DNA of 64,000 nucleotides from Firmicutes bacterium TM09-10. Lineage in GTDB: Bacteria; Bacillota; Clostridia; Lachnospirales; Lachnospiraceae. This document shows positions 24,082-62,498 of the stretch, piece after piece (within the stretch, counting starts at the first letter, position 1; each line of letters begins with the position of its first letter). The position numbers were made by a program, and so were the translations under genes. The stretch is from NCBI GenBank assembly GCA_003481005.1, contig QUKC01000003.1, positions 1 to 64,000 on the forward strand. The letters run 5' to 3'. A model generated the notes under the pieces. The model was not told the DNA's origin, ran no database searches, and saw only the letters and a list, made by a program, of their open reading frames with translations.

Positions 24082-24189
24082 AGCAGTTAAAAATCAACAT
24101 TATTAAAAATTATTTTTACAAAAAAACCGATGCAACATGAGCATTACACCCACACTGCACCGGACATTCCATCATCAACTGCTCTGTCT

Positions 24190-24546: not shown

Positions 24547-26283
24547 TTATGCCTTAATCAACGACCAGCCTTGGCTCTTAGTCTGGAGCTGTACCATGTG
24601 GGCAAAAATGCCGCCCTTATGCAGCAACTGTGCAGGCGATCCCTGTTCTGCTACTGCTCCATCTTTGAGCACCACAATCTTATCTGCACTGGAAACAGTG
24701 CGCATTCGGTGAGCAATAATGAGAACCGTTTTATCCTTGATAAGTCGTGACAGTGCTTCCTGAATGGCAGTTTCGTTCTCCACATCCAAACTGGCTGTGG
24801 CCTCGTCCAGCAGGATGATAGGCGCATCCTTCAGAAAAGCACGGGCGATGGAAATGCGCTGACGCTCGCCGCCGGAAAGGGCACAGCCGTTCTCACCGAT
24901 GTTGGTGTTCCACTTGTCCGGCAGCTTTTCGGCAAATTCCTCGCAGTTTGCCAGCTTTGCCGCCGCCAGAACCTCCTCGTCGGTGGCCCCCTTGCGCCCA
25001 AGACGGATGTTTTCGAGGATCGTGTTGTCAAACAGGGTCACATCCTGAAAGACGATGGAATACAGGCTCATGAGCTTTTCCGGGTCGATTCGGGAGACCT
25101 CCATGCCGCCCACGGTGATGCTGCCCTTCTGGTAATCCCAGAACCGTGCTGCCAGCCGGGAAACAGTGGTCTTGCCGCCGCCGGAGGGTCCTACCAGTGC
25201 CGTGACCTCCCCCTGCTTTGCGGTAAAGGAAACATCCCGCAGCACCGTCTCGCCGGAGTTGTAGGCAAAGCCCACATGGTCGAACACGATATCACAGCCC
25301 TGATTGGTCAGCTGCTCGTTGCCGGTCTGCAGGGGAGCGTCCAGAATCTCGTTCATCCGCCCCACATTGGTGCGCATGGCGATGACCGCCGCCAGATTCT
25401 GCAACGCGCCCTGCATGGGGTCGTACATCCGTGATGCCGCCATCAGGAACAGAAACAGGGTCAGTACGTCGATGCTGCCCTGCACCAGCAGCACTGAGCC
25501 GGTGAGCGCCACCGATGCAATGCCCAGCTTGAGCACCATACCCGCAGAGGACACAAACAGCGCTGTTGTCAGTTCTGCCACGATGGACTGCTTTTCCACT
25601 GCCCGAATTTTTCCGGAAAGGCCGGACAGATAACGTTGCTCCGCATTGCTGGCTTTCAGGTCGCGGAGGGTCTCGATATACTCCTGAATGCCGTCCGCAC
25701 AGGCCATTTTCGCCGCCATGGTCCTGGCCTGCACCTTGTCCTGCACCCAGTAGCTGCCCACCACGATGGCAACAGATACCGGGATGACCCACAGTGCCGC
25801 CAGTGCCATCCGCCACTCAAAGGCAAACAGGCTCAGGGCAATGAGCACCGTGGAAATGAGGGAACCGAACAGACCGGGGATGAAGTGGGAGCAGTCCTTT
25901 TCCAACACCTCGCAGTCCGCCATGATGGTGCTTGTCAGGTCGGCAAGGTCGCGCTTGCCAAAAAAGGACAGGGGCAGCTTCCGCAGCCGCTCCGCAAGGG
26001 TCAGGCGGCGGGTGCCGCTCTCTTTATAGGTGGTAAAATAGGTGCCGTTGTACTGGAACCATGTGGTCAGTAAAATCAGTGCAAAGCAGGCAACGCACCC
26101 CAGCAGATAGAAGGTGCTTCTCCCGCTCGTGGAACCTGCCAGCAGGTCTTTTACCAGAAGATACAACAGCCCGGCGGGCAGCATGAACGCCATGTTCTGG
26201 AACGCACATGCCAGAACGCCCTTTACAAGCCCCTTTGCGCCCTCCGGGGAACTGGCTGTGGCGTGTTGAATTTTTCCGATCAT
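24547..26283 (-). CDS. ABC transporter, fused membrane and ATPase domains (subunit B)
   Basis: A 578-residue half-transporter with an exporter-type fold: six membrane helices (residues 1-310), then the ATPase domain. Walker A is GPSGGGKTTV, the signature is LSGGERQR and Walker B is IILLDEATASLD, all complete. It starts 3 bases after the partner gene, so the two form a heterodimer. The pair resembles exporter-fold siderophore importers of the YbtPQ/IrtAB kind as much as drug exporters; direction cannot be told from sequence. It is the last gene of the 13-kb operon. A closely similar pair lies at 60,764-64,000. Confidence 0.88.
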   Translation of the reverse strand: MIGKIQHATASSPEGAKGLVKGVLACAFQNMAFMLPAGLLYLLVKDLLAGSTSGRSTFYLLGCVACFALILLTTWFQYNGTYFTTYKESGTRRLTLAERLRKLPLSFFGKRDLADLTSTIMADCEVLEKDCSHFIPGLFGSLISTVLIALSLFAFEWRMALAALWVIPVSVAIVVGSYWVQDKVQARTMAAKMACADGIQEYIETLRDLKASNAEQRYLSGLSGKIRAVEKQSIVAELTTALFVSSAGMVLKLGIASVALTGSVLLVQGSIDVLTLFLFLMAASRMYDPMQGALQNLAAVIAMRTNVGRMNEILDAPLQTGNEQLTNQGCDIVFDHVGFAYNSGETVLRDVSFTAKQGEVTALVGPSGGGKTTVSRLAARFWDYQKGSITVGGMEVSRIDPEKLMSLYSIVFQDVTLFDNTILENIRLGRKGATDEEVLAAAKLANCEEFAEKLPDKWNTNIGENGCALSGGERQRISIARAFLKDAPIILLDEATASLDVENETAIQEALSRLIKDKTVLIIAHRMRTVSSADKIVVLKDGAVAEQGSPAQLLHKGGIFAHMVQLQTKSQGWSLIKA

Positions 26284-26286
26284 TCC

Positions 26287-28056
26287 TTACCCCTCCTTTG
26301 CGACCTTCCACTGCACTGAGGCCTGATACTCCTGCCACATCCGGGCAAACAAGCCATTCTGTGCGCACAGCTCATCCTTTGTACCGGATTCTGCAATTTG
26401 CCCATCCTGCACCACATAGATGCAGTCGGCGTTGGCTACGGTGGACAGGCGGTGTGCGATCATCAGCACCGTTTTGCCCTTGGCAAGCTGCGCAAAAGCC
26501 GCCTGTACTTTTGCTTCATTGTCCGGGTCGGCAAAGGCGGTGGCCTCGTCCAGGATCAGGATGGGCGCATTTTTCAGCATGGCACGGGCAATGACAATGC
26601 GCTGCTGCTCGCCGCCGGAAAGATACACGCCCTTGGTGCCAATGACGGTATGGATGCCCGCCGGAAATTTCTCCACAATATCCATGCACTGTGCAGCTTT
26701 CAGCGCCGCCAGCACCTCTGCTTCGGTGGCCTGCGGTCTGCCCAGACGGACGTTATCCAGAATGCTGCCCTTGAGCAGGCGGCTGTTCTGGAACACAAAG
26801 GAGATGGTATCCATCAGTTCTTCCTTGGGGATATCCCGCACATCCGCTCCGCCCACCCGGACGTTGCCGCTCTGCACATCAAAGAACCGGCAGACAAGGT
26901 TTGCCAGCGTGGATTTTCCGCCGCCGGAGGGGCCTACAAAAGCCATCGTCTGCCCCGGCTGAATCTCCAGCGAAACGCCCTTGATGACCTCGGTTTTTCC
27001 GTCGTAGCTGAAATGCACATCCTGCAGCGTGACGGAAGCATCCTGCGGGTGCTGCGGAACATCCTGCACCTGCATGGGCGCTGCCTCCAGCACCGAGTCG
27101 ATGCGTGCCAGCGCATCCGCCACCACCATCTTGCTCTCGCTCATGTACATCATGCGGGTCAAAGTCAGGGAAATCACCGGCGTAATGATGATATAGAACA
27201 GCAGGTTCAGCAGGAATTCCGGCGTGACACCGTGTGCCGTGAACAGCAGCCCGCCCGCGATCAAAAAGGCGAACACGCCGTTGACGGCGGCGGTGTAGAA
27301 CATCATGGGCAGGCGCAGGTCTTTGGTGTAGGAGATGACCCACTTTTCGTATTCGTCAATGGTGGCCTTGAACTTTTTGAAGGAAAAGACCGACTGCCCG
27401 AAGGTCTTGACCACCGGAATGCCACGGACGTACTCCACCTCCTCATTGGACATAGCCTCCAGTGCGTTGCCGTACTGCCGCATTTTTTCAGCCATGCGCT
27501 TGCCGGTCATGGTTGCCATAATGAGGAAAGCCAGCACCACCGGCGCAAGGCTCAGCAGCCCCAACCTCCAGTCGAACACCAACAACAGCACCAGCAGCCC
27601 CACCGGGGTGGCGATAGCGTTGTACTGGTCTGGCAGCTGGTGGGCCAGATAGGTCTCGGCGGCTCCGGTGCTTTCGTGGATGATCTTGCGCAGCTTGCCG
27701 CTGCCAAAAGTTTCGACAAAGCCCAGCGGCAGCACCGCCAGATGCTCCGACACCGCCAGCCGCAGATTGGTCGCCACCCGGAACGCTGACAAATGGGAGC
27801 ACATCAGCGCCGCAATGTAAATGAGGTAGGACAGCACTGCGAATAGCACTGCCATCCAGCCGTAATGGGGGATGTTCACCGCCTGCGCATAGTCCGGCGC
27901 GGCGTTCAGCACATCCCGCAGGATTTTCCAGATGTATACGAAGGGCACCAGTGCCACCAGCGCACTGACCGCAGACAGCACCCACGAGGCATAGGTAAAA
28001 TATCGGTAGTTCCCGGCATAACCCATCAGCCGGGAAAGATCGGACTGTTTTTTCAC
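26287..28056 (-). CDS. ABC transporter, fused membrane and ATPase domains (subunit A)
   Basis: A 589-residue half-transporter. It has six membrane helices, then Walker A GPSGGGKSTL, signature YLSGGEQQR and Walker B ILILDEATAFAD. The D-loop ends FADPDNE where most have SLDxE, as in the partner subunit of YbtPQ-like pairs. The GTG start (28054-28056) overlaps the TGA of the GNAT gene. It should pair with the 24547-26283 product. The second locus encodes the same kind of subunit at 62,499-64,000, with strong similarity across the whole length. Confidence 0.88.
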   Translation of the reverse strand: MKKQSDLSRLMGYAGNYRYFTYASWVLSAVSALVALVPFVYIWKILRDVLNAAPDYAQAVNIPHYGWMAVLFAVLSYLIYIAALMCSHLSAFRVATNLRLAVSEHLAVLPLGFVETFGSGKLRKIIHESTGAAETYLAHQLPDQYNAIATPVGLLVLLLVFDWRLGLLSLAPVVLAFLIMATMTGKRMAEKMRQYGNALEAMSNEEVEYVRGIPVVKTFGQSVFSFKKFKATIDEYEKWVISYTKDLRLPMMFYTAAVNGVFAFLIAGGLLFTAHGVTPEFLLNLLFYIIITPVISLTLTRMMYMSESKMVVADALARIDSVLEAAPMQVQDVPQHPQDASVTLQDVHFSYDGKTEVIKGVSLEIQPGQTMAFVGPSGGGKSTLANLVCRFFDVQSGNVRVGGADVRDIPKEELMDTISFVFQNSRLLKGSILDNVRLGRPQATEAEVLAALKAAQCMDIVEKFPAGIHTVIGTKGVYLSGGEQQRIVIARAMLKNAPILILDEATAFADPDNEAKVQAAFAQLAKGKTVLMIAHRLSTVANADCIYVVQDGQIAESGTKDELCAQNGLFARMWQEYQASVQWKVAKEG

Positions 28057-28682
28057 GAAAGAACCTCCTTCAAAAGCTCATCGGTCGACTCCGGGTACCT
28101 GATCAGGTCATACAGCTTGCCAAATGCGCCAAGATCATGCGTTTCTGCAAGTTCCATACCCAGATGCACATATTTGTCGCACTTAGATTTTGCATCCGTT
28201 TCCAGAATCACCGGCACACCCAGCCGGTCGCCCTCGGCAAAGGCAATGTCCAGCACCTTGCGCATATAGCCCTGCCCCTGATATTCCTCCCGCACGCAGA
28301 CAAGCCCAACGAAAATATAGGTTTTCTTTTCCTTGTCCATGCGGTCTTTCAGGGAAGCCCCGCCCCGCTTGATGGCAATACCAAATTGCAAAAGGCGCTT
28401 CAGAGTGGAGTTGTGCAGCATTCCGCAGGCGATGGGCCACATCGTCTTGAGTCCCATCTTCTCCTTTGGCAGCTTGTAGGCGATATATCCCTCGCCCCGC
28501 TCGCTGGTGGTGTGCAGAAAGCCGCCCCGCAGCACCCCGCGCACATAAGCGCAGATATAGTTTGCCGTGGCTTCTTTCCCGGAAAAGGCAGCGGACATTC
28601 CTGTTTCCTCTTCATAGTCATAATAGCCGAAGGCATGGCCGATATCACGGATGGATTTCTCGTCTAATGTTGTAACTTTCAT
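28053..28682 (-). CDS. GNAT-family N-acetyltransferase
   Basis: A 209-residue acetyltransferase-like protein. The acetyl-CoA loop is visible as EEYQGQGYMRKVLD (Q-x-x-G-x-G/A pattern), followed by the beta-strand VPVILETDA and the YVHLGMELAE segment. It overlaps the hydrolase gene by 4 bases and the ABC gene by 4 bases. Within this operon it could acetylate an amine of the small molecule handled by the other enzymes or serve self-protection. The target is unknown. Confidence 0.8.
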   Translation of the reverse strand: MKVTTLDEKSIRDIGHAFGYYDYEEETGMSAAFSGKEATANYICAYVRGVLRGGFLHTTSERGEGYIAYKLPKEKMGLKTMWPIACGMLHNSTLKRLLQFGIAIKRGGASLKDRMDKEKKTYIFVGLVCVREEYQGQGYMRKVLDIAFAEGDRLGVPVILETDAKSKCDKYVHLGMELAETHDLGAFGKLYDLIRYPESTDELLKEVLS

Positions 28683-29473
28683 TGTATTTCACTTTCCTGA
28701 TTCTGCTGCGCATCTGCCACTGTCTTACCGTCTGCCAGAAAGTGCTCCATCTCCGACACAAGCAGTGCCGGATGATTGATGATCTCGCCATGGCCGAAAC
28801 CGGGGAAACAGCGGACGATCAGGCTCGGATATGCCGTCCGCAGCCGCTGGATGGCCTTTTTCATGTGCCCTTCTTTTTCTCCGTACCAACAGGCGACCTT
28901 TGCATTGGGCTGTACCAAAAAGTCCGTTCGATAGAGATAAAGTCCTGCCTCCCAAGTGGCCCGGACGGATTCCAAGCTGATATGATCCGGGATACGGCGG
29001 AGCATAGTCTGCATTCCCTGCTCCGTCTGCCCCATAAAGCGCAGCGCCCATGCAGGCATGTACTTTTCGTGTGCCGTTCGATATTGCTTTTGCGGCATGA
29101 CCTTCAAAATCAGTCGATTCAGCACTCCGAAATCCAGATACTCCGGCCCGCTGAGGATCATCCGATCGATCTGAACGGTTGGGGAAGCCTTCAGAAAAAA
29201 AGCCGGTCCGCAGCCCAGCGACTCTGCAAAAAGCAGATCCAACTGTCCGTCAAGCTCTTTTTCAATATAAGCGGCCAACTTGTCCGCCTGATCCCGGGCA
29301 GTCGTGTAGGTCGTTTCACCGGTTCCATCAAAGCCGTCGAAGCTGACGGCATACACGCAAAATTTCCTTTCCAGCAGCGGGATCAAATCCTCAAACTGCT
29401 GCCAGCACATAAGATTTCCGTGCAGCAGCATCATGGTCTTTCCCTCTATATTGCCGAATCGTTTGATTTCCAT
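28679..29473 (-). CDS. Alpha/beta hydrolase
   Basis: A 264-residue alpha/beta hydrolase. MLLHGNLMC gives the oxyanion loop, ESLGCG the nucleophile elbow (variant G-x-S-x-G as E-S-L-G-C), and GFGHGE a likely catalytic His. The start at 29473 is preferred because GGGAGG precedes it; the frame is open 18 bases further. It lies 20 bases after the ATC-hydrolase-family gene and overlaps the GNAT gene by 4. It is one of three alpha/beta hydrolases in the operon; substrate unknown. Confidence 0.78.
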   Translation of the reverse strand: MEIKRFGNIEGKTMMLLHGNLMCWQQFEDLIPLLERKFCVYAVSFDGFDGTGETTYTTARDQADKLAAYIEKELDGQLDLLFAESLGCGPAFFLKASPTVQIDRMILSGPEYLDFGVLNRLILKVMPQKQYRTAHEKYMPAWALRFMGQTEQGMQTMLRRIPDHISLESVRATWEAGLYLYRTDFLVQPNAKVACWYGEKEGHMKKAIQRLRTAYPSLIVRCFPGFGHGEIINHPALLVSEMEHFLADGKTVADAQQNQESEIQ

Positions 29474-29493
29474 ACCAATCTGCCTCCCCACTA

Positions 29494-30096
29494 TTATCTG
29501 ACCTTCATGCAGAAATCGCAGCGGTCATTTCCACGCCCCAGCGTCATGCTTCTCTTCCAGATCAGCTTCGGATGCAGCCCGGTATAGCTGATGTCATCAC
29601 TGTCGCAAAAGCTGCGACACAGCTCCGGGCAACCGTATTCTGTGCAGGTGTCGTGATAGGGACACTTCATCATATCCACACGCCAGACGCCGTTACCGGT
29701 CTGCAGTTCTTTTGGGACAAAGCCCGCCGCCGGGCCGAAAACGCTCCGGGTGGATTTGACGAAAACGCCGGGAACAAGGCGGTAAAGCCCCGGTATGTGC
29801 AGCAGGGCGGCAAGCTGTTTGTGGCTCGTTCTCGCCAGCCGCTCCACATAGCCGTGAACGGTTTGCAGTGCCTCCTCTTTCGGCATGACCCGCCGCAAGG
29901 TCTCGTAGGCCGCAATGCCCGGCAATATCTGCCGCTTGAGGTGGTATTGCTTTTCCTTGCTTGCATCTGCATTTTCAGCCAGCAGCGCACTCAGGCGCAT
30001 ATCGAAAGCGGTGTTCAGTTCCTTTGCCTGCGCGGGAAAGCGCAGTGCCACAGTCTCCCGGAAATCACGGGAAAGATAGGTTTCCTTCCTCTTCAT
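29494..30096 (-). CDS. ATC hydrolase-family protein (paralogue 1)
   Basis: A 200-residue protein of the L-2-amino-thiazoline-4-carboxylate hydrolase family. The C-terminal cysteine-rich block is clear: CPYHDTC, GCPELCRSFCDSDD, a Tyr-Thr-Gly stretch and CDFC at the end. Known members open a thiazoline ring; here this is a family inference only. Two more paralogues, at 30103-30735 and 33785-34486, sit in the same operon. It has no signal peptide and starts 6 bases after the previous paralogue. Confidence 0.75.
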   Translation of the reverse strand: MKRKETYLSRDFRETVALRFPAQAKELNTAFDMRLSALLAENADASKEKQYHLKRQILPGIAAYETLRRVMPKEEALQTVHGYVERLARTSHKQLAALLHIPGLYRLVPGVFVKSTRSVFGPAAGFVPKELQTGNGVWRVDMMKCPYHDTCTEYGCPELCRSFCDSDDISYTGLHPKLIWKRSMTLGRGNDRCDFCMKVR

Positions 30097-30102
30097 CGTC
30101 CG

Positions 30103-30735
30103 TTACCCTTTCTTTTTGTACCCGCAGTCGCAGTAGGGTCCGCCGGAAGCAAGGGTATACTGCCGCACAAAATTTGTCACACCGCCTGCTTCGCTCATGG
30201 TGTAGTCCAGATGGCACAAAGCAGGGGTCAGGTCATACAGCCCCAGCTCCTTCATCAGCACACAGATGCCGCATTTTGTAAAGCGTCCCTCGTAGCCGCT
30301 GCCGTCAGGGTATTCGTAAAACTCCATGTTCCACGAATAGGGGTTGCGGTCGGCGGCTTTCAGGGCGGCAGTGGCTTTCATAGCGGCAATATCCTTTGGG
30401 GTGAACTTGCTTTTTCCGCTTTTGCGGCAGAACCACTGCATGGGCTTTGTCATCATGGATTTTGCATAATACTCCGTCAGCCGCTCCACATCCGGGCGCT
30501 CCGGCATGGAGAGAATAAACGCGCCGAGCATTGCGCAGTTGGCGATGTTCATCTTGAAGCGGTCCGCTTTTTCAAACTCCGGCAGCCTGCGAATGATCTG
30601 CCGGTATTGCGGCTTTGCCTTTTTCGTGATGGCTTTTGCCGTATTCGTACCGTAGCCAAACACCGCTGTCAGCTGGTTTTGAAAGGAACCGGCAAACAGC
30701 ACCCACATTCCAAAGGGCATTCCAGCGTATTTCAT
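30103..30735 (-). CDS. ATC hydrolase-family protein (paralogue 2)
   Basis: About 210 residues, with the C-terminal pattern KCGICVL, PALCHLDY and YCDCGYKKKG that aligns with paralogue 1. The cysteine spacing differs from paralogue 1, so the three proteins may have different substrates or only one may be catalytic. The start at 30735 is chosen because its ATG overlaps the reductase stop (ATGA); a start further upstream would lie inside that gene. Confidence 0.72.
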   Translation of the reverse strand: MKYAGMPFGMWVLFAGSFQNQLTAVFGYGTNTAKAITKKAKPQYRQIIRRLPEFEKADRFKMNIANCAMLGAFILSMPERPDVERLTEYYAKSMMTKPMQWFCRKSGKSKFTPKDIAAMKATAALKAADRNPYSWNMEFYEYPDGSGYEGRFTKCGICVLMKELGLYDLTPALCHLDYTMSEAGGVTNFVRQYTLASGGPYCDCGYKKKG

Positions 30736-31658
30736 TGCAGATACCTCCCGGCTTCCGCTTCCAGTGCCTGCCACACCGGGTAGGCTGCGCCGTTCTCATC
30801 GAAAAATTTCTTGAGATCCCGGTTCAGCGCACTCATTTCATCAATGGCGTTCATGGCGTGGTCGGAGGCGCAGAGCTTGCCCAGCGAGGTGGCACACATC
30901 AGCTTGAAAAAGCGCAGGCAGGTCTTGCGGTATTTCTCCCCTTCAAAGTCTGCATCCTCCTTGGGCAGAATGCTGTGCCCGGCATCTCGGATGGCGCGGT
31001 ATCCCTCGATGTTGGCATCCAGCACACGGTTCAGGTACGCAGTATCTCCCCTGAGCTTTTTCAGGTCGCCGTCTGTCTTATAGCAGGCGAAGGCCGCAGG
31101 CATCACAAACGCGGCATGGCAGAGCAGATAGTCCTCCATGTTCGGCTCGTAAACAACCTTATATTTTGTGCCGTGGAAGATGCGCCCGATCAGTTGTTTA
31201 TTGGAGATTGCACCCGGCAGCTGTCCGATGGTGATCTTTTTCAGGTCGATGGAGACCACCCGGTCAGCCTCCCGATGCCCGGCAGAAAGCGCAAAGGCAA
31301 ACAGGACGTTCTTTTCCGGCAGTGCCGCCGCCAGCGCCCTCGCCTGCACATTGTTCCCCACAAAAACGATGTTCTTCGTCCGGTTCGCCCGCAGCGTATC
31401 CAGAACGGAATCCAGCTGTGTATAGCGCAGGACCACAAAGATCACATCGTACATTGCATCCGGTGCAAGTTCAGTCACCACCGGAATGCGGCTGACCGAA
31501 GTGCAAAACGAAAACTTATCCTTGATTCGCAGGCCGTTCCGCCTGATCTCTGCTGCCCAGTTTCCCCGTGCAAGCAGGGTGACATCCTTTCCGGCGCGCA
31601 GCAGATTTCTTGCCAGATTGCACCCTAAAACACCTGCGCCATATACCAGAATTTTCAT
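30732..31658 (-). CDS. Ketopantoate reductase-like (ApbA/PanE family) oxidoreductase
   Basis: A 308-residue NADP-dependent reductase of the 2-dehydropantoate 2-reductase family. The Rossmann motif GAGVLGCNLA begins at residue 7 and VGNNVQA matches the family's NG/N region. In this operon it is more likely an accessory enzyme reducing a carbonyl or imine (for instance a thiazoline to thiazolidine, as reductases do in some metallophore pathways) than pantothenate biosynthesis. That role is inference. It overlaps the methyltransferase and ATC-family genes by 4 bases each. Confidence 0.82.
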   Translation of the reverse strand: MKILVYGAGVLGCNLARNLLRAGKDVTLLARGNWAAEIRRNGLRIKDKFSFCTSVSRIPVVTELAPDAMYDVIFVVLRYTQLDSVLDTLRANRTKNIVFVGNNVQARALAAALPEKNVLFAFALSAGHREADRVVSIDLKKITIGQLPGAISNKQLIGRIFHGTKYKVVYEPNMEDYLLCHAAFVMPAAFACYKTDGDLKKLRGDTAYLNRVLDANIEGYRAIRDAGHSILPKEDADFEGEKYRKTCLRFFKLMCATSLGKLCASDHAMNAIDEMSALNRDLKKFFDENGAAYPVWQALEAEAGRYLQ

Positions 31659-32506
31659 TGCTTGCCTCCAAATCCGATCTTTACAATCTGCATCTTCATC
31701 ATTCCGTCACCGACCCTGGCGAGAAAACGGAAAAATCCGCTGACGGATGGGTCTTTCAAATCGGTGTAGCCCAGCATATAGCCTCGGCTGGTGACCTGCA
31801 AGCGGCTATCCCACGCACTGATCTCTTGGGGAGCATCCGAAACCGCGAAATATGCTCCCACATCCTTAATTTTCGCCGTCCTGAGCCACGTTTTGGCGAT
31901 CATCTTCACTGCCGTACGGTTGGCAGCATCAAAGACCAGCACTCCGCCGGGGAAAGCGTCCGCCATTCCCTGCACCAGTTCCCGAACCTGCTCCGTCAGG
32001 AAGTAATAGAACACCCCGGAGGCAAAGAACACCGCCCCGCCGGAGGCATCGATCTTGTCAAACCATGCGGGGTCTTTCAGGTCGCAGGGGATGTTTTGCT
32101 CCCGCTCCCCGGCGGGCAGAAGCTGCTGCCGCAAGGCGATCACATCCGGGAAGTCCAGATTGTAGATTTTACAGCTGCCGTTGTCGCAGCTTCTTCCAGT
32201 GCTGTCCAGCCCGCAGCCCAGATTGACCACCGCCGCATTGGGGTGAGATTTCAGATAATCCCGCACCTCAAAAGCAAGGTCATTCTGCCGCATGGCGACC
32301 TCCAGTGAACCGAAACGCTGCATCAGGCCGCGGGAATTTTTCTCCGCCTCTGAAAAATCGTAGTCGATCTCGTCAATCAGGCGAACCGCCGTTTCGTCCC
32401 GGTAAAGGTTCGGATACAGCTCTGTGCACAGCTTCCGGGAATACAGCGGGAGGATCAACGTCTCCTGCACGGTGTTTTTCTCAATTTTGTATTTCATAGG
32501 TATCAC
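31655..32506 (-). CDS. SAM-dependent O-methyltransferase, LCM/PPM family
   Basis: A 283-residue methyltransferase of the leucine carboxyl methyltransferase-like (TcmP) family. VVNLGCGLDSTGRS is the SAM-binding motif I; the NLDFPDVIALRQQLLP stretch (core NLDFPDVIALRQ) and FASGVFYYF follow. GTG at 32506 directly follows the previous stop; ATG at 32497 is the alternative start. A relative sits at 59102-59908 in the second locus. Such enzymes methylate carboxyls or hydroxyls of small molecules. Confidence 0.85.
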   Translation of the reverse strand: MIPMKYKIEKNTVQETLILPLYSRKLCTELYPNLYRDETAVRLIDEIDYDFSEAEKNSRGLMQRFGSLEVAMRQNDLAFEVRDYLKSHPNAAVVNLGCGLDSTGRSCDNGSCKIYNLDFPDVIALRQQLLPAGEREQNIPCDLKDPAWFDKIDASGGAVFFASGVFYYFLTEQVRELVQGMADAFPGGVLVFDAANRTAVKMIAKTWLRTAKIKDVGAYFAVSDAPQEISAWDSRLQVTSRGYMLGYTDLKDPSVSGFFRFLARVGDGMMKMQIVKIGFGGKQ

Positions 32507-33289
32507 TCACTTTCTGATAAATGGCAGTTCCGGCATACAGTCACGCTCGGCGATGTGTGCCAGCATTTCGGCGAACCCCTTTGGATCGCGAATCTGATAT
32601 TGCATGTGATTGTATCCCTCAAACACGGGACAATGGCCGCAGGGGTAGGCTTCCATCACTGCTTGGCGGTATTTGAAATGATCTTCTATACTGCCAAACT
32701 CGAAATAGGTATGTTTTTGCAATTCTTTTGAAAGCGTCGGAAAGGGTTTATCCTCCAGACTGTCCGAAATCTGCCGCCGCAAATTTGTATAGGTCAGATT
32801 TTTCCCTGCGTCTATAAAATACAACTTTATGGAATCGTCGTCACACCACAGTATCTTTTTCAGCGTACCGCCCTTCGACCAATATAGGCTCTTGATGGCA
32901 AAATACAGAAACGGCGTCATGATACGGCGCGTGCCCTTTCCGATTTGGGCGAACTGCCCGCCGTCAAAGAAAGCGTGCTCCACGGGCAGCTTCGTCTGCG
33001 TCAGAAACGCCATGGCAAGGTCTGCACCGATGGAAGAAGCGACCACCATCGCCAGCCGCTCCACGCCCTGTCGATTCAGAAAGTCCTCCACCTGCCGTAT
33101 TTCGTCCAGCTTGCTGACATATTTCTGCCTCTCGCAGTAAACGGTGGAGGTGGGCAAAATGCAGAAATATCGATCCTGCAAATACCTCGCAATCGGTTCG
33201 CTGCTCGCTCCTGTCACACCCATTGCATGAAAGAACAGCACGGCAGGATTCCTCCTGTCGCCATATGTTTGAAACAGCATTTCTATCAC
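32507..33289 (-). CDS. Alpha/beta hydrolase
   Basis: A 260-residue hydrolase: VLFFHAMGVTG is the oxyanion region and VASSIGADLAM the nucleophile elbow (A-S-S-I-G in place of G-x-S-x-G). YNHMQY carries a likely His. Its stop abuts the LCM methyltransferase start and its own start lies 1 base from the small membrane gene. No signal peptide is seen. The weak G in the elbow makes catalytic activity less certain. Confidence 0.72.
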   Translation of the reverse strand: MIEMLFQTYGDRRNPAVLFFHAMGVTGASSEPIARYLQDRYFCILPTSTVYCERQKYVSKLDEIRQVEDFLNRQGVERLAMVVASSIGADLAMAFLTQTKLPVEHAFFDGGQFAQIGKGTRRIMTPFLYFAIKSLYWSKGGTLKKILWCDDDSIKLYFIDAGKNLTYTNLRRQISDSLEDKPFPTLSKELQKHTYFEFGSIEDHFKYRQAVMEAYPCGHCPVFEGYNHMQYQIRDPKGFAEMLAHIAERDCMPELPFIRK

Positions 33290-33290
33290 C

Positions 33291-33785
33291 TCATATTTTC
33301 ATAAAAAGCATCATAATCGCCGCCAGTGCTGCCGAAATGACCGCCATACCAATTGTGCCGAACAGCCACTTTTTGCCCTTATCCTTGGCTGTAATGTAGG
33401 GTTTCAGGTCTTCCGTTCCCGGAATTTCCCATGCGTTCGTATGTCCTACCCAATAGCCGTCAACCCAAAATCGGTCTATGAGATTCATAACGGACAGTAT
33501 GACCAGCAGCTGCCAGAAGCCCTGAACGAAGCCCTTTGCACCGTTGAGCGCATAGACGCAGACCAGCACATAGGCGATGTATCCGGGGACGCAGACAGCT
33601 TTGAAAATCAAATCATTTCGCTTGATTTTCGCGTGTGTTGTAAGTCCCAGCGTTACGCACCGCTCCTGCACCTCCTGGCTGTAAAGATGCACCATGCCCA
33701 CCGCGCCCTTGCGGATACCGATGGCGCAAACCAAAATGAGCAGAACGCCCAGCCCGATGCCTTCCAAAATCACCTGTAAAAGCAT
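33291..33785 (-). CDS. Small integral membrane protein of unknown function
   Basis: A 164-residue protein with about four hydrophobic segments, at the N-terminus (MLLQVILEGIGLGVLLILVC region), near residue 70, near 95 and at the C-terminus (IGMAVISAALAAIMML). I do not recognise the family. The stop of the upstream ATC-family gene overlaps its start by one base and the hydrolase follows 1 base later, so it is part of the operon. Membrane anchoring of the pathway or an accessory transporter role are both possible. Confidence 0.6.
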   Translation of the reverse strand: MLLQVILEGIGLGVLLILVCAIGIRKGAVGMVHLYSQEVQERCVTLGLTTHAKIKRNDLIFKAVCVPGYIAYVLVCVYALNGAKGFVQGFWQLLVILSVMNLIDRFWVDGYWVGHTNAWEIPGTEDLKPYITAKDKGKKWLFGTIGMAVISAALAAIMMLFMKI

Positions 33786-34486
33786 TACCGATTCCTCCTG
33801 AAGCCCGCCTCATCCCGGTATTCGGGATGTCCCTTCAAGTACGGGTCTTTATCGCCGCAGATGGTGTAGTCGCATCGGCAGCCGTCCACGCAGGTGGTCG
33901 TCCGCACCAGCTTGGCATGGAGCAGTTCCATGGACGCAAAGTCCACATTACACAGGGCGGGCATAATATCCGTAAGACCGTGTTTGATAGCAAACTCCGC
34001 TGCCGGGCACGCCGTAAATTCATAATAAATAGGCTTGTCGGTTTCATAAGGCGCAACCGACATCTCGTAATCGTGCCATTTGTCGCAGCCGCTTTTCGCA
34101 CGAACAAACGCCTTGTACATCAGCTTCCTCCAGAACGGCTTGTTGCAGTCCACAAATTTCAGCTTGCGGAAAGTCGGAAGAATCAGATTTTCCTCCATCT
34201 CTTCGATTTCACGGAACGAAGTAACTGCTTTGCAGACCACATAATAGCTCATGATGGCGATGCAGTCGTAGGTACCGCCTACGCCGTTGTGGAAGTTCTT
34301 TTTGCCGCCCAAGTCGGTGCGCCAGTCGGAGAGATAGACCGCGTACTGCCGCTGTACCTTTTCCCATACTGTCTCCCGCTCTGCTTCCGGATAGTGCAGG
34401 GCGATTTTCGCCAGGATTTCTTTCTTGCAAGGCTTTGAATACAGCACATGGCTTTTGAGGTCGAATAGAAGCTCGTTGTCCTTCAT
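33785..34486 (-). CDS. ATC hydrolase-family protein (paralogue 3)
   Basis: A 233-residue member of the same family as 29494-30096. The C-terminal half shows FTACPAAEFA, PALCNVDFAS and CVDGCRCDYTICG, with the CDY-type motif seen in all three copies. The start at 34486 has a GGAGGGAGG ribosome site; the frame runs 36 bases further upstream without one. Three members of one enzyme family in a single operon is unusual and points to a substrate with several heterocycles, or to division of labour. Confidence 0.75.
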   Translation of the reverse strand: MKDNELLFDLKSHVLYSKPCKKEILAKIALHYPEAERETVWEKVQRQYAVYLSDWRTDLGGKKNFHNGVGGTYDCIAIMSYYVVCKAVTSFREIEEMEENLILPTFRKLKFVDCNKPFWRKLMYKAFVRAKSGCDKWHDYEMSVAPYETDKPIYYEFTACPAAEFAIKHGLTDIMPALCNVDFASMELLHAKLVRTTTCVDGCRCDYTICGDKDPYLKGHPEYRDEAGFRRNR

Positions 34487-34537
34487 CTGATTGCCTCCCT
34501 CCTTGTTCTTTCTTGCGTGCATGAGGCCATCTCAGAT

Positions 34538-35221
34538 TTAACCCGCTTTTCGGCAGGCAAAACATGCCATGCTCTTCACTGTTCCAAGTGTTACGGCTTT
34601 GTACAGTTTCCCCAGCCGTTTTTTCAAACTGATGGTCGTTTCGTAGGGCGGTGTGAAAAAACCTGCCTTTTCATAAACATGCCGGACAAACCAATCCGTC
34701 CGCTTGTGCTCATCCTTCACATAAAAGCAGCCGCAGAATGTTCCGCCGGGTCTCAAGACCCGGAAAACCTCCCGATAAGCGGCTTCCTTGTCCGGAAAAG
34801 CATGAAAGCCGTTCAGTGACAAAACGATGTCGAAAGTATCGTCTTCATAGGGAAGCGCCCCCACATCGCCCTGCCGGAAGGTTACATTTTTCAGGTGCAG
34901 GCGGTCAGCCTTTTCCCGTGCCTGCCTCATCATATCGGGCGAATAATCGAGGCAAGTGATGTCTGCCTCCGGCATAGTCTGATAAACCGGCATGGTCAAA
35001 ATACCGGTTCCGACAGGCACCTCAAGCAGCTTACCGGAGAAATACTCCGGAATCCCGGACAGTGCCTTTTCCAGATAGGCGTCGTTTTCCGCCTTGTTCA
35101 TTGCCCACACCAAGCGGCACACCGCTTTCCCACTCAGAGTAGAGCAGGTAATCATGCCGTCATAAAAATTATTCTCGCCGGTCATTCGGTACGCACCGCG
35201 AATGGTCTCTTTGCGTTCCAT
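34538..35221 (-). CDS. Class I SAM-dependent methyltransferase (Methyltransf_11 type)
   Basis: A 227-residue methyltransferase. LLEVPVGTGILT is motif I (V-P for the more usual G-C), ITCLDYSPDMM the acidic loop, and LRPGGTFCG the post-motif. The start at 35221 is chosen for its GGAGGAAAACCC leader. It lies 44 bases after the esterase-like gene and about 50 bases ahead of the ATC-family gene, inside the operon. Specificity unknown. Confidence 0.85.
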   Translation of the reverse strand: MERKETIRGAYRMTGENNFYDGMITCSTLSGKAVCRLVWAMNKAENDAYLEKALSGIPEYFSGKLLEVPVGTGILTMPVYQTMPEADITCLDYSPDMMRQAREKADRLHLKNVTFRQGDVGALPYEDDTFDIVLSLNGFHAFPDKEAAYREVFRVLRPGGTFCGCFYVKDEHKRTDWFVRHVYEKAGFFTPPYETTISLKKRLGKLYKAVTLGTVKSMACFACRKAG

Positions 35222-35265
35222 GGGTTTTCCTCCATGTTTCAATCATCACACGACCGTTTCCGGCC

Positions 35266-36171
35266 TCATTTCTTCAAAATGTCCACGATTTTTGCAAAGT
35301 CCTCCTTTGCCTCCTTGAAGATCGGCAACATACAGTAGCAATGCACCATCTTCGGACGGGCAGACACCGTATAGGGGACATTTGCGCGTTTGCAGGCTTC
35401 CTCAAAGTCCGGCAATGCGCCGTAGAGCACCTCGTCGGCAGAATAGAAGAAGTGAATATCGCCTACGCCGGTAAAATCTCCCCGTGAGCCGGAGAGCATA
35501 TAGTCCGGTACATTCTCGCAGCCATGCCGCATGAGCTTCTCCACCGTCATCATGAAAGCATAGTCGATGGCGACGTCCCTTTCATTGAGTGCCTGCATCC
35601 GCGCCATTTCCGCATCGTTCCACGGCACCTCGCCAGGGGATACGGCAACAATGTGCCTTGGCTGCGACAGCGGTTCAGGCTGCGCGTTATTATGCGCCGC
35701 AATGCCAAGCGCCAACGCGCCGCCGGAGGAAAAGCCGCAGGTACTGACATTTCCGCCGCCATACAGTGCAATCATTTTTCGATAACATTCATACACCATT
35801 GCGTATGTTTCAGTAATGCAGTGCTCCATGCAGAGCGGGTAAAACGGAAACCACACATCACAACCGGTCTCGCGGCAGAGCTTACGCATCACAGGCAGGT
35901 CGCCTTTGTCCGGGCCGATCACCATACCGCCGCCGAAGAAGTAGAGGATCGCGCGCTCGGACGGCTTCAGATGCTCTCGCACGATCAGGCAGGGAAAGCC
36001 GTTTACCGCGATCGTTTCATAATATGCCTTGCGGTCGGTGGGCGTAAAAACGCCACGATGCCGGTTCTGCTTTTCAATTTCCTTTCGCAGTGCATCCTCC
36101 GGCAAGGCGAACGCCTTTTTCGCGCCGGAGAGCTTGTATACGCTGCGTAAGATAGATGCAAAGATACTCAT
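35266..36171 (-). CDS. Alpha/beta hydrolase, HSL/acetyl-esterase (Aes) family
   Basis: A 301-residue esterase. YFFGGGMVIG is the HSL-type oxyanion motif (FGGG where most have HGGG) and GFSSGGALAL the nucleophile elbow. A His near the C-terminus (MVHCYCM) may complete the triad. It starts about 11 bases after the methyltransferase gene at 36183. In a thioester- or ester-linked natural product pathway such enzymes release or open the product, but here the substrate is unknown. Confidence 0.8.
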   Translation of the reverse strand: MSIFASILRSVYKLSGAKKAFALPEDALRKEIEKQNRHRGVFTPTDRKAYYETIAVNGFPCLIVREHLKPSERAILYFFGGGMVIGPDKGDLPVMRKLCRETGCDVWFPFYPLCMEHCITETYAMVYECYRKMIALYGGGNVSTCGFSSGGALALGIAAHNNAQPEPLSQPRHIVAVSPGEVPWNDAEMARMQALNERDVAIDYAFMMTVEKLMRHGCENVPDYMLSGSRGDFTGVGDIHFFYSADEVLYGALPDFEEACKRANVPYTVSARPKMVHCYCMLPIFKEAKEDFAKIVDILKK

Positions 36172-36182
36172 GATTTAGCCCC

Positions 36183-36788
36183 TCATTTCCACGCCGTAAT
36201 GCAGAGCCAGCTTTTCTTTTTGTGTATCTGCACATCGTGAAAGCCCGCCTGCTCCAGATACGTCTTCAGCTCGGCGTCCTTGTAGATGGTCATGCCGCCG
36301 ATGATCTCCGTCCACTTCTTGTCCTTGTCCGTATCGCCGTTGCTTTCGTTGCAGATGAGTAATGTCCCGCCAGGCTTCAGCACCCGGTAAACCTCCCGGA
36401 AGCACTGCGGCAGATCGGGCCAGAAATAGACGGTTTCAAAGGCCGTTACCGCATCAAACCAGTCGCCTGCAAAGATCATATTCGCCACGCTGCCTTGCAG
36501 AACGGTGCAGCGGCCCTCCGCTATGGCGGCCTCGTTGACCTTTTTGGATTTCTCCACACTGACGGGGGAATAGTCAATGCCCTTGACAATACCCTCCGGG
36601 CATTTTTTCAGAAGTCTCTTGATGTTCGCCCCTCCGCCACAGCCGCAGTCCAGCACCTTGGCGTCCAGAGTAAGCTCCAAAAAGCGAAGTCCCCACCGTG
36701 CCACAGGACTGTGCCCCAGGTTCATCATGGCGACCATGATTTTCCCGCCAAGCCCCACAGGCTTTCTGGTGTTCTCAAAAAATGACAT
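36183..36788 (-). CDS. Class I SAM-dependent methyltransferase
   Basis: A 201-residue methyltransferase. VLDCGCGGGANIKRLL is motif I, GIDYSPVSVEKS motif II, and LKPGGTLLICNESNG the post-motif. It starts 4 bases after the first gene of the operon. The N-terminus GGKIMVAMMNLGHSP resembles the membrane-proximal part of the methyltransferase at 59932-60747 but lacks its two helices. Confidence 0.88.
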   Translation of the reverse strand: MSFFENTRKPVGLGGKIMVAMMNLGHSPVARWGLRFLELTLDAKVLDCGCGGGANIKRLLKKCPEGIVKGIDYSPVSVEKSKKVNEAAIAEGRCTVLQGSVANMIFAGDWFDAVTAFETVYFWPDLPQCFREVYRVLKPGGTLLICNESNGDTDKDKKWTEIIGGMTIYKDAELKTYLEQAGFHDVQIHKKKSWLCITAWK

Positions 36789-36792
36789 CTTA

Positions 36793-37407
36793 TCACACCT
36801 CCGATTTCACACATTCCGTATAGGTCAGCGGAAAAGCGGCCTTTAGAACAACACTTTTTCGCACTGTCCAATCATTCTGTTGCAGAAATTTCAGGTATTC
36901 CTCACTCGTCCACTTGCTGTGAAGTGGAAAGCCTGCCAGCTTCATGAAAAAGGCTTTGACCTTGCCGGGAAATGAGTTTTCTGCGTGCGTAAAGGTAGGC
37001 GCGATCAGCACACCGTCATCCTTCAGCACCCGTTTGATCTCTCGCAATGATTTTTCTGGCTGAGGCACAATGTGCAGTGCGTTTGATACGATTACCACAT
37101 CGAATGATTTGCTCGCGTATGGCAGAGAAAACATATCCTGCACGGAAAAACGCAGCTTCACAGAGTAATTCCCCCGTTTGGCCTCTGTAATCATTTCCGG
37201 AGAGGCATCCGTCGCCTCGATGTGTGCCGCTGCTTTTACGATGTGCTTGGCGATCAGTCCCGTTCCGGTAGCCACCTCCAGCACTGTTTTGTCTTTCACG
37301 ACCGGACGGATCAGCTCATACATTTTCTCGTATACTGCCCTGTCTTTTCGCATAAAGCAGTCATACAGACCTGCATTTCTGCCCCAGAAATTCTTGTGTT
37401 CTCGCAT
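36793..37407 (-). CDS. Class I SAM-dependent methyltransferase (first gene of the operon)
   Basis: A 204-residue methyltransferase: VLEVATGTGLIAKHI is motif I, HIEATDASPEMITEA the acidic loop, and LKDDGVLIAPTF the post-motif. It reads MREHKNFWGRNAGLYDCFM at the start, with AAGGAGAGA ahead of the ATG. It is the first gene behind the promoter with two GTTAG palindromes. UbiE/Coq5-like small-molecule methyltransferases share this pattern. Confidence 0.87.
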   Translation of the reverse strand: MREHKNFWGRNAGLYDCFMRKDRAVYEKMYELIRPVVKDKTVLEVATGTGLIAKHIVKAAAHIEATDASPEMITEAKRGNYSVKLRFSVQDMFSLPYASKSFDVVIVSNALHIVPQPEKSLREIKRVLKDDGVLIAPTFTHAENSFPGKVKAFFMKLAGFPLHSKWTSEEYLKFLQQNDWTVRKSVVLKAAFPLTYTECVKSEV

Positions 37408-37419
37408 TTCTGTCTCTCC

Positions 37420-37485
37420 TTTTATAGTTAGATTTATCTAACCAGTACGCGCACATTGACAAGTTAGGTTTGGCTAACTCATGTA
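37420..37485 (-). promoter_or_regulatory. Operon promoter with two GTTAG-N6-CTAAC palindromes
   Basis: Two 16-bp palindromes lie ahead of the first methyltransferase gene: GTTAGATTTATCTAAC (37427-37442) and GTTAGGTTTGGCTAAC (37463-37478). On the minus strand a TTGTCA -35 and a TAGATA -10 with a 16-base spacer fit between and over them, so one site covers the -10 and the other flanks the -35. The second site resembles the DtxR/IdeR box (TTAGGTTAGGCTAACC). A metal-dependent repressor is inferred; other dimeric repressors could use such a site. Confidence 0.6.
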
Positions 37486-37725
37486 TTTAGGAAAAGCCGC
37501 ATTTCTGCGGCCTTTCGGCTTATACAAATAGCTTGCTGCAAGCATCACACATCTGTATTTTCAGCCACTGAGGACAACGCCTCTCGATCTACTCCTTATG
37601 GAAACAGCCAAAATCTATTTTCACACCATTGCGGTGACTTTTGCCTTCTTATCCATATTATATCGTGCCCACTTCTTTTTTGCAATGGTATAGTATCTCT
37701 ATTTTGTCATTTGAAACTTTCAAAA

Positions 37726-37769
37726 GTAAATTCCACCGTCCGCATGCCCTAATGTCAGATGGAATTTAC
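37726..37769. repeat. Inverted repeat in the 37.5-37.9 kb gap
   Basis: GTAAATTCCA (37726-37735) and its exact inverse (37760-37769) enclose 24 bases. They lie in the 400-base gap between the operon promoter and the DUF4143 ATPase gene. No gene is seen in this gap. The pair may be a remnant of a mobile-element end or an operator; nothing more can be said. Confidence 0.4.
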
Positions 37770-37803
37770 CATTTCACTGGAATTTAAAATTTCAAGTTAC
37801 CGG

Positions 37804-37874
37804 CAAAAAAATAGCCAGGTCTCCAATTTCAATCAGAAACCTGGCTATGTAAAAGGGCGGCTCACCGCCGCCCT
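37804..37874 (-). terminator. Double hairpin terminator after the DUF4143 ATPase gene
   Basis: On the minus strand, a G+C hairpin (37854-37860 with 37868-37874) comes first. A second stem, ATAGCCAGGT (37811-37820) with its inverse (37839-37848), follows and ends in a T-run (37810-37804). Confidence 0.75.
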
Positions 37875-37879
37875 CATCG

Positions 37880-39092
37880 TTAATATTCTGTGCTCAATAG
37901 AAAATCTGCAATGTGCATACTCTTAATGCCTTGGTAATTTCCTCCGGCAAATTCATCGGTTTTTAAAACATACTTCGGATAGTTATCCCGGATTTCCAGC
38001 AGTCGTTCATATTCACGCTTTTCTGTCTTCTCGGATTTAATCTCCTGCGTGACCTGCACGTACAACCGGTCATTCTGCTTCTGCGCCACAAAATCGACCA
38101 CACCATCCGGCATTTTCCCAATCGTCACGGTATATCCTCGTCTGCAAAGTTCCAGATACACCACATTTTCCAGACTGGAAGCGACGCTGTCCGGTGTGTA
38201 GCCCAGCACACTGTAACGCAAAGCGGTATCGGCAAGATAAAACTTCTCCTGCGTTTTCAGAATCTCCTTTCCGCGCAGGTCGTATCGAGAACAGCGATGA
38301 AGGAGATATGCTTTCTCCAGCTTTTTCAGATAGCTGTACACTGTTTCATTGTCGATAGAACGATGCTCTGATTTCAGATAATCCGAAATTGATTTTGCTG
38401 AGAATGAATTTCCCACATTCGCAAATGTGTACCGAACCACCCGTTCCAGCTGGTCGATCTTGCGAATCTGGTTTCTCTTTACGATATCCGAGAAAATCGT
38501 GGAATTATAGATATCCCGGACAATCGTATAAACCTCATCCTGTGAATACTCTCGCAGGTGCGTTGCAGGGAAGCCGCCCAAGCGGATATAGTCTGCCAGT
38601 TCAGCATGGATATCCTTTACCTGTGTATACTGCTTTTTAAATTCCAGATATTCCTGAAACGAAAGCGTATAGATACGGAAGGAAACATATCGCCCGGTCA
38701 GGTAAGTCGCTATTTCCGAAGACATCATTCTGGAATTGGAGCCTGTCACATAAAGGTCAACATCGTAATCCGTTGCCAGAGAGTTTACAACTTTCTCCCA
38801 GCCTTCAATTTCCTGAACCTCATCCAGAAAGAGATACGTTCTCCCGGTTGGATTTAGCTTTTCTTTGACAGCCTTGAACATATCCTTCGCTGTCATATCC
38901 TCATAATCCATGGAATCGAAGCGCATGCTGACAATCCTCTCAGACGGAACACCATGCTCCTGTTGCAGCTTCTCCATGATCATTTTAAGGACTGTGGATT
39001 TTCCGCAGCGGCGAACACCCGTCAACACTTTTACAAAAGTTGTGTCGGTGTAGGCCATAATCTTATCGACGTAGAGCGGTCTGTTTATCATA
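37880..39092 (-). CDS. AAA-family ATPase with DUF4143 domain
   Basis: A 403-residue protein. The N-terminal ATPase shows Walker A GVRRCGKST and Walker B YLFLDEVQEI, then the VTGSNSRMM sensor. The C-terminal DUF4143 part (ALRYSVLGYTPD, VVDFVAQK, a PD-(D/E)XK-like VDFVA) completes it. The start at 39092 is chosen for GGAGGTGG directly ahead; the frame runs 128 bases further without support. Proteins of this type are widespread in gut anaerobes; the role is unknown, with nucleic-acid or defence functions suspected. Confidence 0.85.
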
Positions 39093-53309: not shown

Positions 53310-53816
53310 AGAGAATGATACACGGATATGGATAAAGCCTGCCAGGTATCATGCTGATACAGCACCCGGCAGTGCTTTCTGAAAATATTGTTTCTCTGTA
53401 CTTTTTCTTATTACCCCAGAGATGTAGGATTTCTCACAGACGGCAGTGTGCTTCACTGCTCCATTGGAATTTAACCATCCAGCCTTCCTTATGGCCGGAC
53501 CGCGAATTACGGAAGTATCATTGTCCCTGCCTGGCTTTAACCCCGCCGCCGGTTGCAATCCGGCATTTGCTTCTGCGAAACCGCTATCGCCCCGATGGGC
53601 TTCATGGCGTGCAGTCGAAGGCTCGACCAAACAGGAATGTACCTGAAGAATGAGTATTCAGTTTTCAAGGGACATCCGGACTCTCGTCCTTACAAAGTAA
53701 GTTTAACAAGAATCCTCCTATTTCGCGTTGGTCTCGTAGGCGCACTTTGGTTGTCCTTGCAGGACTACCTACGGTTCGTTTTGACTTTTCAGTGTTCTAT
53801 ACAACCAGCTTAGGGC
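53310..53816. other. Unassigned 500-base region without an intact gene
   Basis: No coding frame here is convincing. The minus strand contains a 93-codon frame (53349-53630) with no known motif. The text CTTGAAAACTGAATA on the minus strand near 53,655-53,669 is like that seen close to rRNA operons, but no rRNA is present. The stretch has many short inverted repeats and a G+C bias different from both sides, so it is probably leftover of a mobile element. Confidence 0.35.
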
Positions 53817-59908: not shown

Positions 59909-59931
59909 AGCCAAACCTCCTGTTTTATACA

Positions 59932-62497: not shown

Positions 62498-62498
62498 A

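Follow-up and report, generated by a model that had tools for sequence, protein, structure and literature searches.

A 15-gene operon behind paired metal-box-like palindromes in a Lachnospiraceae contig, with order-keeping relatives in other Clostridia

In a 64,000-nucleotide stretch of contig QUKC01000003.1 from Firmicutes bacterium TM09-10 (the window, by which we mean this whole stretch), we analyzed a run of 15 open reading frames (ORFs), g1 to g15. They encode four methyltransferases, three members of the PF14196 ("ATC hydrolase") family, various other enzymes, and a pair of ATP-binding cassette (ABC) half-transporters. We found that these ORFs form an operon, that comparison with other genomes places it in a colinear family, and that its control by a metal is well supported. 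We also propose what it may do and weigh this proposal against the alternatives.

The operon and its genes

The 15 ORFs lie on the minus strand between 37407 and 24547, and as called, successive ORFs are separated by -43 to +23 bases (Table 1). A strong terminator-like hairpin lies on either side of the run. In most relatives, g5 and g10 start 12-13 residues later, which would make the junctions there about +51 and -4 bases. This matches a preliminary description of this DNA, made from the sequence alone, which had reported a tight minus-strand operon of 15 genes; no gap exceeds about 51 bases, and the operon is real. The same description placed a promoter at about 37.45 kb. The palindromes that it noted are indeed there, but we found no sigma-70-like match at that position; the best such match (37685-37657) lies some 180-215 bases further upstream than the palindromes.

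The gene inventory in the preliminary description was confirmed by Pfam, but two genes are less certain: g7 gave no Pfam match, though it matches one alpha/beta hydrolase in the PDB (4rpc), and g13 falls just below the cut-off for GNAT. Pattern checks found intact sequence motifs in g1-g4, g7-g9, g12, g14, and g15: g1, g2, g4, and g8 have an S-adenosylmethionine (SAM) motif, g9 has a nucleotide motif, g3, g7, and g12 have motifs like a nucleophile elbow, and each of the two ABC proteins, g14 and g15, has the Walker A, signature, and Walker B motifs. As described earlier, the operon has no scaffold-making enzyme: Pfam found no domain of a nonribosomal peptide synthetase (NRPS), a polyketide synthase (PKS), or an NRPS-independent siderophore (NIS) synthetase among g1-g15. 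The only methyltransferase- or reductase-type Pfam matches in the operon are generic methyltransferase, LCM, and ApbA, and the PDB matches of g9 are eight 2-dehydropantoate 2-reductases, all weak. We also considered the synthesis of an opine-type (staphylopine-like) metallophore, and rejected it because Pfam shows no nicotianamine-synthase or opine-dehydrogenase domain in g1-g15.

Table 1. Genes and other features of the operon, with the evidence for each
Feature	Position	Strand	Evidence
Terminator-like hairpin upstream of the operon	37811..37848	-	17 pairs and a T run
Operator-like palindrome GTTAGGTTTGGCTAAC, distal copy	37463..37478		exact GTTAGN6CTAAC
Operator-like palindrome GTTAGATTTATCTAAC, proximal copy	37427..37442		exact GTTAGN6CTAAC
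g1, class-I SAM methyltransferase	36793..37407	-	PF08241, 79.4 bits
g2, class-I SAM methyltransferase	36183..36788	-	PF08241, 74.6 bits
g3, alpha/beta hydrolase, GFSSG motif	35266..36171	-	PF07859 (Abhydrolase_3), 54.7 bits
g4, class-I SAM methyltransferase	34538..35242	-	PF13649, 85 bits
g5, PF14196 protein (start probably 34486)	33785..34522	-	PF14196, 48.7 bits
g6, small membrane protein	33291..33785	-	no Pfam match; hydrophobic segments
g7, alpha/beta-hydrolase-like protein	32507..33289	-	no Pfam match; PDB 4rpc, E = 1.9e-5
g8, LCM-type methyltransferase	31655..32506	-	PF04072, 38.4 bits
g9, ApbA/PanE-type NAD(P)H reductase, in the variable slot before g10	30732..31658	-	PF02558, 64.9 bits
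g10, PF14196 protein (start probably 30735)	30103..30774	-	PF14196, 77.7 bits
g11, PF14196 protein	29494..30096	-	PF14196, 113.2 bits
g12, alpha/beta hydrolase	28679..29491	-	PF12697, 31.3 bits (Abhydrolase_6/1)
g13, GNAT-like protein	28053..28682	-	PF00583, 19.8 bits (cut-off 20.7)
g14, ABC half-transporter, YbtP-like	26287..28056	-	Pfam ABC; phmmer YbtP, 338 bits
g15, ABC half-transporter, YbtQ-like	24547..26283	-	Pfam ABC; phmmer YbtQ, 294 bits
Terminator-like hairpin downstream of g15	24127..24163	-	17 pairs and seven T

We scanned the window with Rfam as well. In the leader (37380-37900) there was nothing at curated scores, only six weak matches, every one of them below its own gathering score, so we rejected a known RNA element there. 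The sole match at such scores in the window was a pemK RNA motif elsewhere (RF02913, 66.1 bits, at 53461-53524 on the minus strand).

Palindromes and gene order in related loci

We scanned a genome collection with an alignment of g5 and obtained 46 loci (L001-L046), so the presence of g5 in every locus is built in. Going by their record titles, most of them are in Faecalibacterium, Gemmiger, or other Oscillospiraceae or Clostridia, and fewer are in Lachnospiraceae. At E ≤ 1e-40, g5 was found in 10 of 31 genomes from the genus of Faecalibacterium and in 2 of 64 from the genus of Blautia luti. (From two protein-database searches, we considered the best 120 of 1605 and the best 120 of 5976 matches.)

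The two palindromes in front of g1 are the sole matches to GTTAGN6CTAAC in the 64 kb, with one mismatch allowed, and their starts are 36 bases apart. The spacing is also 36 in L001, L009, and L013, and it is 35 in L002-L004 and L014. Two matches in the window would be unremarkable alone: with up to one mismatch, shuffled sequences gave 0.95 matches on average and at least two in 24 of 100 shuffles, and for exact TTAGN6CTAA the count was 11 of 100 shuffles. The palindromes are above chance because they are paired at the promoter and recur in relatives. We searched for the box within 350 bases upstream of the first operon gene, with up to one mismatch in both the target and a reversed-pattern control, and left out 12 of the 46 loci that had no assignable first operon gene. 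The box was present in 27 of the remaining 34 relatives (at least one exact copy in 24, at least two copies in 11), and the reversed pattern was present in 0 of 34. Eight different first genes lie behind it (g1, g4, g5, ZIP, MBL, LCM2, abh17, and mem16).

The genomes of six relatives each have 10-22 exact copies of the box, versus 1-2 of the reversed pattern. We examined the neighbors of 53 of the 80 sites, in four of the six genomes, and from 26 frames chosen by eye we gave ten to Pfam. Nine of the ten proteins had a match: FeoB, FeoA, ZIP, Nramp, flavodoxin, DUF3793, ApbE, an ABC half-transporter (which is YbtP-like), and a Trep_Strep energy-coupling factor (ECF) transporter. Furthermore, genes for repressors of the DtxR family are present in every one of the six relatives. 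In two relatives there are box-led operons (L111, L113, and L118) that run from an ECF transporter through a YbtPQ-like pair to a DtxR-family gene, with no NRPS within the stretch fetched. Because the box is shared with feoA, feoB, Nramp, and ZIP genes, recurs in front of the related operons, and is accompanied by the DtxR family in every relative examined, sequence comparison gives good support to iron, or a related metal, as the signal that controls the operon. The preliminary description had proposed metal regulation from the palindromes in the window, and the comparison bears this out. The cognate repressor of the box is presumably a DtxR-family protein.

For gene order and slot counts, we compared the window with L001-L026 (27 units in all; L027-L046 were left out as more distant). 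We used plus-strand matches of at least 58% identity and gene-family pairs seen in at least two units, and ignored the kinship of the units. The majority gene order was kept in 1049 of 1065 pair observations. The same genes occur in differing combinations, and their median identity to the window copy is 80-96% per gene. Exchange is seen in the slot directly before g10: of the 16 units with g10, 15 have one, and only one, of three genes unrelated to each other there, namely the ApbA reductase, a BAAT-type hydrolase, or DUF6796. (L023 is the sole g10 unit without an occupant, and no unit holds two.) In units that have g8 as well, the exchange lies at gene ends at the DNA level. Other variable genes include one with a metallo-beta-lactamase fold, in 13 of 27 units, and a ZIP transporter (confirmed by Pfam), in 8 of 27. 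The alleles in the window are themselves a mosaic, as g1 is nearest to L013 (98%, versus 82% to L014 and a median of 82% over relatives) while g2 is 98% identical to L014 (versus 73% to L013 and 71% to L009).

We saw no repeat common to the gene junctions, and in the eleven gene pairs inspected, the stop of one gene meets the start of the next in an ordinary way. We therefore rejected site-specific cassette recombination; the exchanges are explained more simply by homologous recombination in the genes on either side. From these comparisons, the operon is a member of a colinear family that is shuffled gene by gene. The acquisition of metal chelates is itself known, and what is novel is that the gene content varies while the order is kept, behind a metal box that recurs.

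Several relatives have further features. Directly before the ABC pair, the Faecalibacterium loci L010, L016, L017, and L018 have an AraC-type regulator (a call tested by Pfam in L018) and a small gene that is lipoprotein-like and has no Pfam match. L003 is a similar operon on a contig of a Sphaerochaeta metagenome-assembled genome; its proteins up to g8 are 81-94% identical and g4 and g9 are in pieces. Either the operon has moved into a spirochaete or the contig was binned wrongly. In the two Blautia-genus genomes with g5 (L123 and L001) a TetR gene lies in front of the operon and a g9 fragment at its end, and the B. luti copy of the operon adjoins an ECF/YbtPQ-like/DtxR operon.

The operon core has a GC content of 52-58%, which is unusual for its host: the left flank is mostly 36-44%, but 48-55% at about 10-16 kb. 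When 12.2 kb of the left flank was compared with the genomes of 23 relatives, the best match was Blautia luti, at 96% over only 4.4 kb. A GC-rich unit in a low-GC flank that matches B. luti indicates that the host is probably a Blautia-like Lachnospiraceae with low GC, and that it probably acquired the operon. We rejected the idea that the window is Faecalibacterium DNA, as matches were found in 4 of 31 genomes of that genus at 65-66%, save for 79-base pieces at 80%. On a larger scale, positions 24000-50000 are GC-rich (48-59%) between flanks of mostly 36-48%, and this stretch also holds an AAA_14/DUF4143 gene, an ORF of 2580 amino acids, and a LuxR/MalT-type regulator.

The transporter pair and the PF14196 proteins

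YbtPQ imports yersiniabactin and IrtAB is a mycobactin importer, and both have the exporter fold. The preliminary description likened g14/g15 to transporters of this type, and the resemblance stands. We compared each protein to its best 60 PDB chains, where two-domain transporters outscore the others since their two domains add up. Among the single half-transporters in these sets, YbtP is the best match for g14 (338 bits and about 35% identity, followed by IrtA at no more than 321 bits), and YbtQ is the best for g15 (294 bits, versus 256 for Sav1866). In a maximum-likelihood tree of 38 rows, with IrtAB left out, a 26-row clade of YbtP, YbtQ, the two pairs in the window, and most pairs from related loci is split from MsbA, MdlAB, and CydCD with support of 100/99, so g14/g15 do not group with the exporters that were tested. 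Within this clade, g14 joins E. coli YbtP at 94/87, and g15 joins YbtQ, which was flagged as a long branch, at only 85/48.

The second YbtPQ-like pair is at 60764-63965, is 72% identical to g14/g15, and runs off the edge of the window, with its promoter out of view. It is followed by a class-I methyltransferase frame (59932-60740) with an N-terminal membrane part and an in-frame TAG, which is possibly a pseudogene, and then by an LCM methyltransferase (59102-59932).

As in YbtPQ and IrtAB, g14 and g15 are an adjacent pair of the heterodimer type, with YbtP and YbtQ as their neighbors in the tree. In contrast to those systems, the operon has many enzyme genes in place of a siderophore synthetase, and g14 lacks the siderophore-interaction domain, according to Pfam. 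Another system to compare is the equibactin locus of Streptococcus equi (eqbA-N), together with its Clostridial relatives. In the available parts of its description (PMC3672683), the locus has a DtxR-like regulator, a three-gene importer (EqbHIJ), an alpha/beta-hydrolase-like protein (EqbN), and a YbtPQ-like pair (EqbKL, 29% identical to YbtPQ). The box-led ECF/YbtPQ-like/DtxR operons of the two relatives resemble the transport half of this locus. In contrast, g1-g15 include no NRPS, regulator, or ECF genes; those parts of the description name no separate methyltransferase or PF14196 gene for eqb; and the EqbA operator is a 36-bp palindrome (PMC3672683).

The PF14196 family is named after one characterized enzyme, the ATC hydrolase of a Pseudomonas. 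As the preliminary description expected, g5, g10, and g11 all belong to the family, with scores above the gathering cut-off of 28.1 bits. In AlphaFold2 models (pLDDT 90.3 for g5 and 95.9 for g11), g11 has Foldseek matches to H-NOX, Bet3, and V4R, and g5 has weak matches to the same; for both models the top match is an H-NOX domain or an H-NOX-containing protein. (Structural families missing from these lists are not counted as excluded.) The models suggest that PF14196 proteins may have a ligand-binding fold like that of the H-NOX/V4R/Bet3 superfamily. A search of PDB profiles with the g5 alignment gave no match. The available text of a 2018 study (PMC5847659) describes an archaeal sensor domain that resembles HNOB, V4R, and PF14196 domains, with a three-cysteine cluster common to the sensor, V4R, and PF14196 domains. 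The preliminary description had supposed that these proteins open thiazoline rings. That idea derives from the one characterized member, and the two models suggest a ligand-binding fold; given no evidence about the substrate, we do not put thiazoline hydrolysis forward as established, and the thiazoline inference for the operon as a whole is weak.

Possible functions of the operon

We give an even chance to the following reading: the operon serves under iron starvation, where its products transport a small iron chelator, with a scaffold that comes from outside, and alter it enzymatically. Under starvation for iron or a related metal, a DtxR-family repressor would leave the paired GTTAGN6CTAAC boxes and the operon would be turned on. 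The YbtPQ-type pair would move the chelator, more likely inward, and cytosolic enzymes (the esterase-like hydrolases, methyltransferases, reductase, PF14196 proteins, and acetyltransferase-like protein) would alter it, with the PF14196 proteins being either ligand-binding or hydrolytic. The change to the chelator would release the iron or make the ligand harmless or reusable. The operon would not make the scaffold. As related operons differ in single genes and keep the box and the order, the structure that is handled probably varies from strain to strain. The recurrence of the box, the YbtPQ clade, and the ZIP genes in related operons support this reading. Furthermore, among six relatives that we checked, none has a NIS synthetase and two have an NRPS condensation domain. 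Together with the lack of a scaffold enzyme in the operon, this favors processing over synthesis, and it fits with the use of foreign chelators.

Several observations weigh against this reading. The box is missing from 7 of the 34 relatives (two of these, L006 and L023, are cut at the start of a contig), and by eye, some boxes are near genes without an obvious link to metals (enolase-like and pyruvate-formate-lyase-like). Also, the box resembles the DtxR/IdeR regulon in its palindromic GTTAG/CTAAC half-sites, in having feoA and feoB in its regulon, and in the DtxR-family genes of relatives, but its spacing is unlike that of the canonical 19-base DtxR operator (TTAGGTTAGSCTAACCTAA), and no such regulator was identified in the window itself. 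As for the transporter, g14 was found at 58% identity or more in only 7 of the 27 units, including the window (several others are cut by contig ends), and the ABC pairs of L029 and L034 lie outside the YbtPQ clade, near exporters. Breakdown pathways do not typically involve methyltransferases, and the presence of four, along with the shuffling, would also fit the tailoring of a self-made chelator. Finally, the preliminary description favored import, but in the available parts of the equibactin study, deletions suggest that EqbHIJ imports equibactin and that EqbKL, a pair related to g14/g15, exports it (PMC3672683).

That result also favors an alternative that we consider rather unlikely, in which the operon tailors a small chelator of the cell's own, derived from a primary metabolite or from a precursor made elsewhere. 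The ABC pair would export or recover it, and the shuffling would diversify it and thereby prevent its theft by neighbors. The methyltransferases, GNAT-like protein, and reductase do resemble tailoring enzymes that methylate, acetylate, reduce, or trim; the exchange of slot genes at constant order resembles the diversification of biosynthetic loci; and the metal box fits this reading too. What speaks for an outside scaffold instead is the same scarcity of synthetases in the operon and in the six relatives, and we saw no condensing enzyme of the ligase type in the operon either. It is more improbable still that the substrate is a metal tetrapyrrole such as heme, imported by this transporter or by a co-regulated ECF transporter, bound by H-NOX-like PF14196 proteins, and modified in its side chains by the other enzymes. 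The top Foldseek matches of both PF14196 models fit with this idea, as do the box-led ECF transporters: according to the available text of PMC7299338, Staphylococcus lugdunensis takes up heme through an ECF transporter that iron regulates. Moreover, tolI, in the cluster for the tetrapyrrole tolyporphin, is provisionally called an ATC hydrolase in the available text of PMC8401325. We attach a similarly low probability to a general cassette for detoxification or export that has a metal box by chance. Its esterases, methyltransferases, and acetyltransferase would suit the modification of foreign compounds, and its ABC transporter has the exporter fold, but the pair is set apart from MsbA, MdlAB, and CydCD, the box recurs in front of differing sets of genes, and related operons include ZIP transporters.

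We also put forward, tentatively, a broader proposal that we think doubtful as a whole: that anaerobic gut commensals scavenge iron with a so far undescribed system that makes no scaffold. A single promoter under metal control would drive a fixed order of genes, and recombination at the ends of genes would swap single enzyme genes from genus to genus, so that every strain would have a chemistry of its own to capture or dismantle the chelators of its competitors. The swapped set would comprise methyltransferases, alpha/beta hydrolases, a hydrolase with the metallo-beta-lactamase fold, the slot gene (reductase, acyl-hydrolase, or DUF6796), PF14196 proteins with an H-NOX/V4R fold, ZIP, AraC, and the YbtPQ-type pair. 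Among the literature search results listed (with few subscription papers or preprints), we found no description of this operon and no account of the acquisition of chelated iron by anaerobes such as Faecalibacterium or Gemmiger. A metal-box promoter, strain-variable enzymes, and a siderophore-type transporter in one operon could let the consumption or making of gut chelators under iron limitation be tied to gene content. The operon could also help in assigning a function to members of PF14196, a large family that takes its name from a single characterized enzyme.

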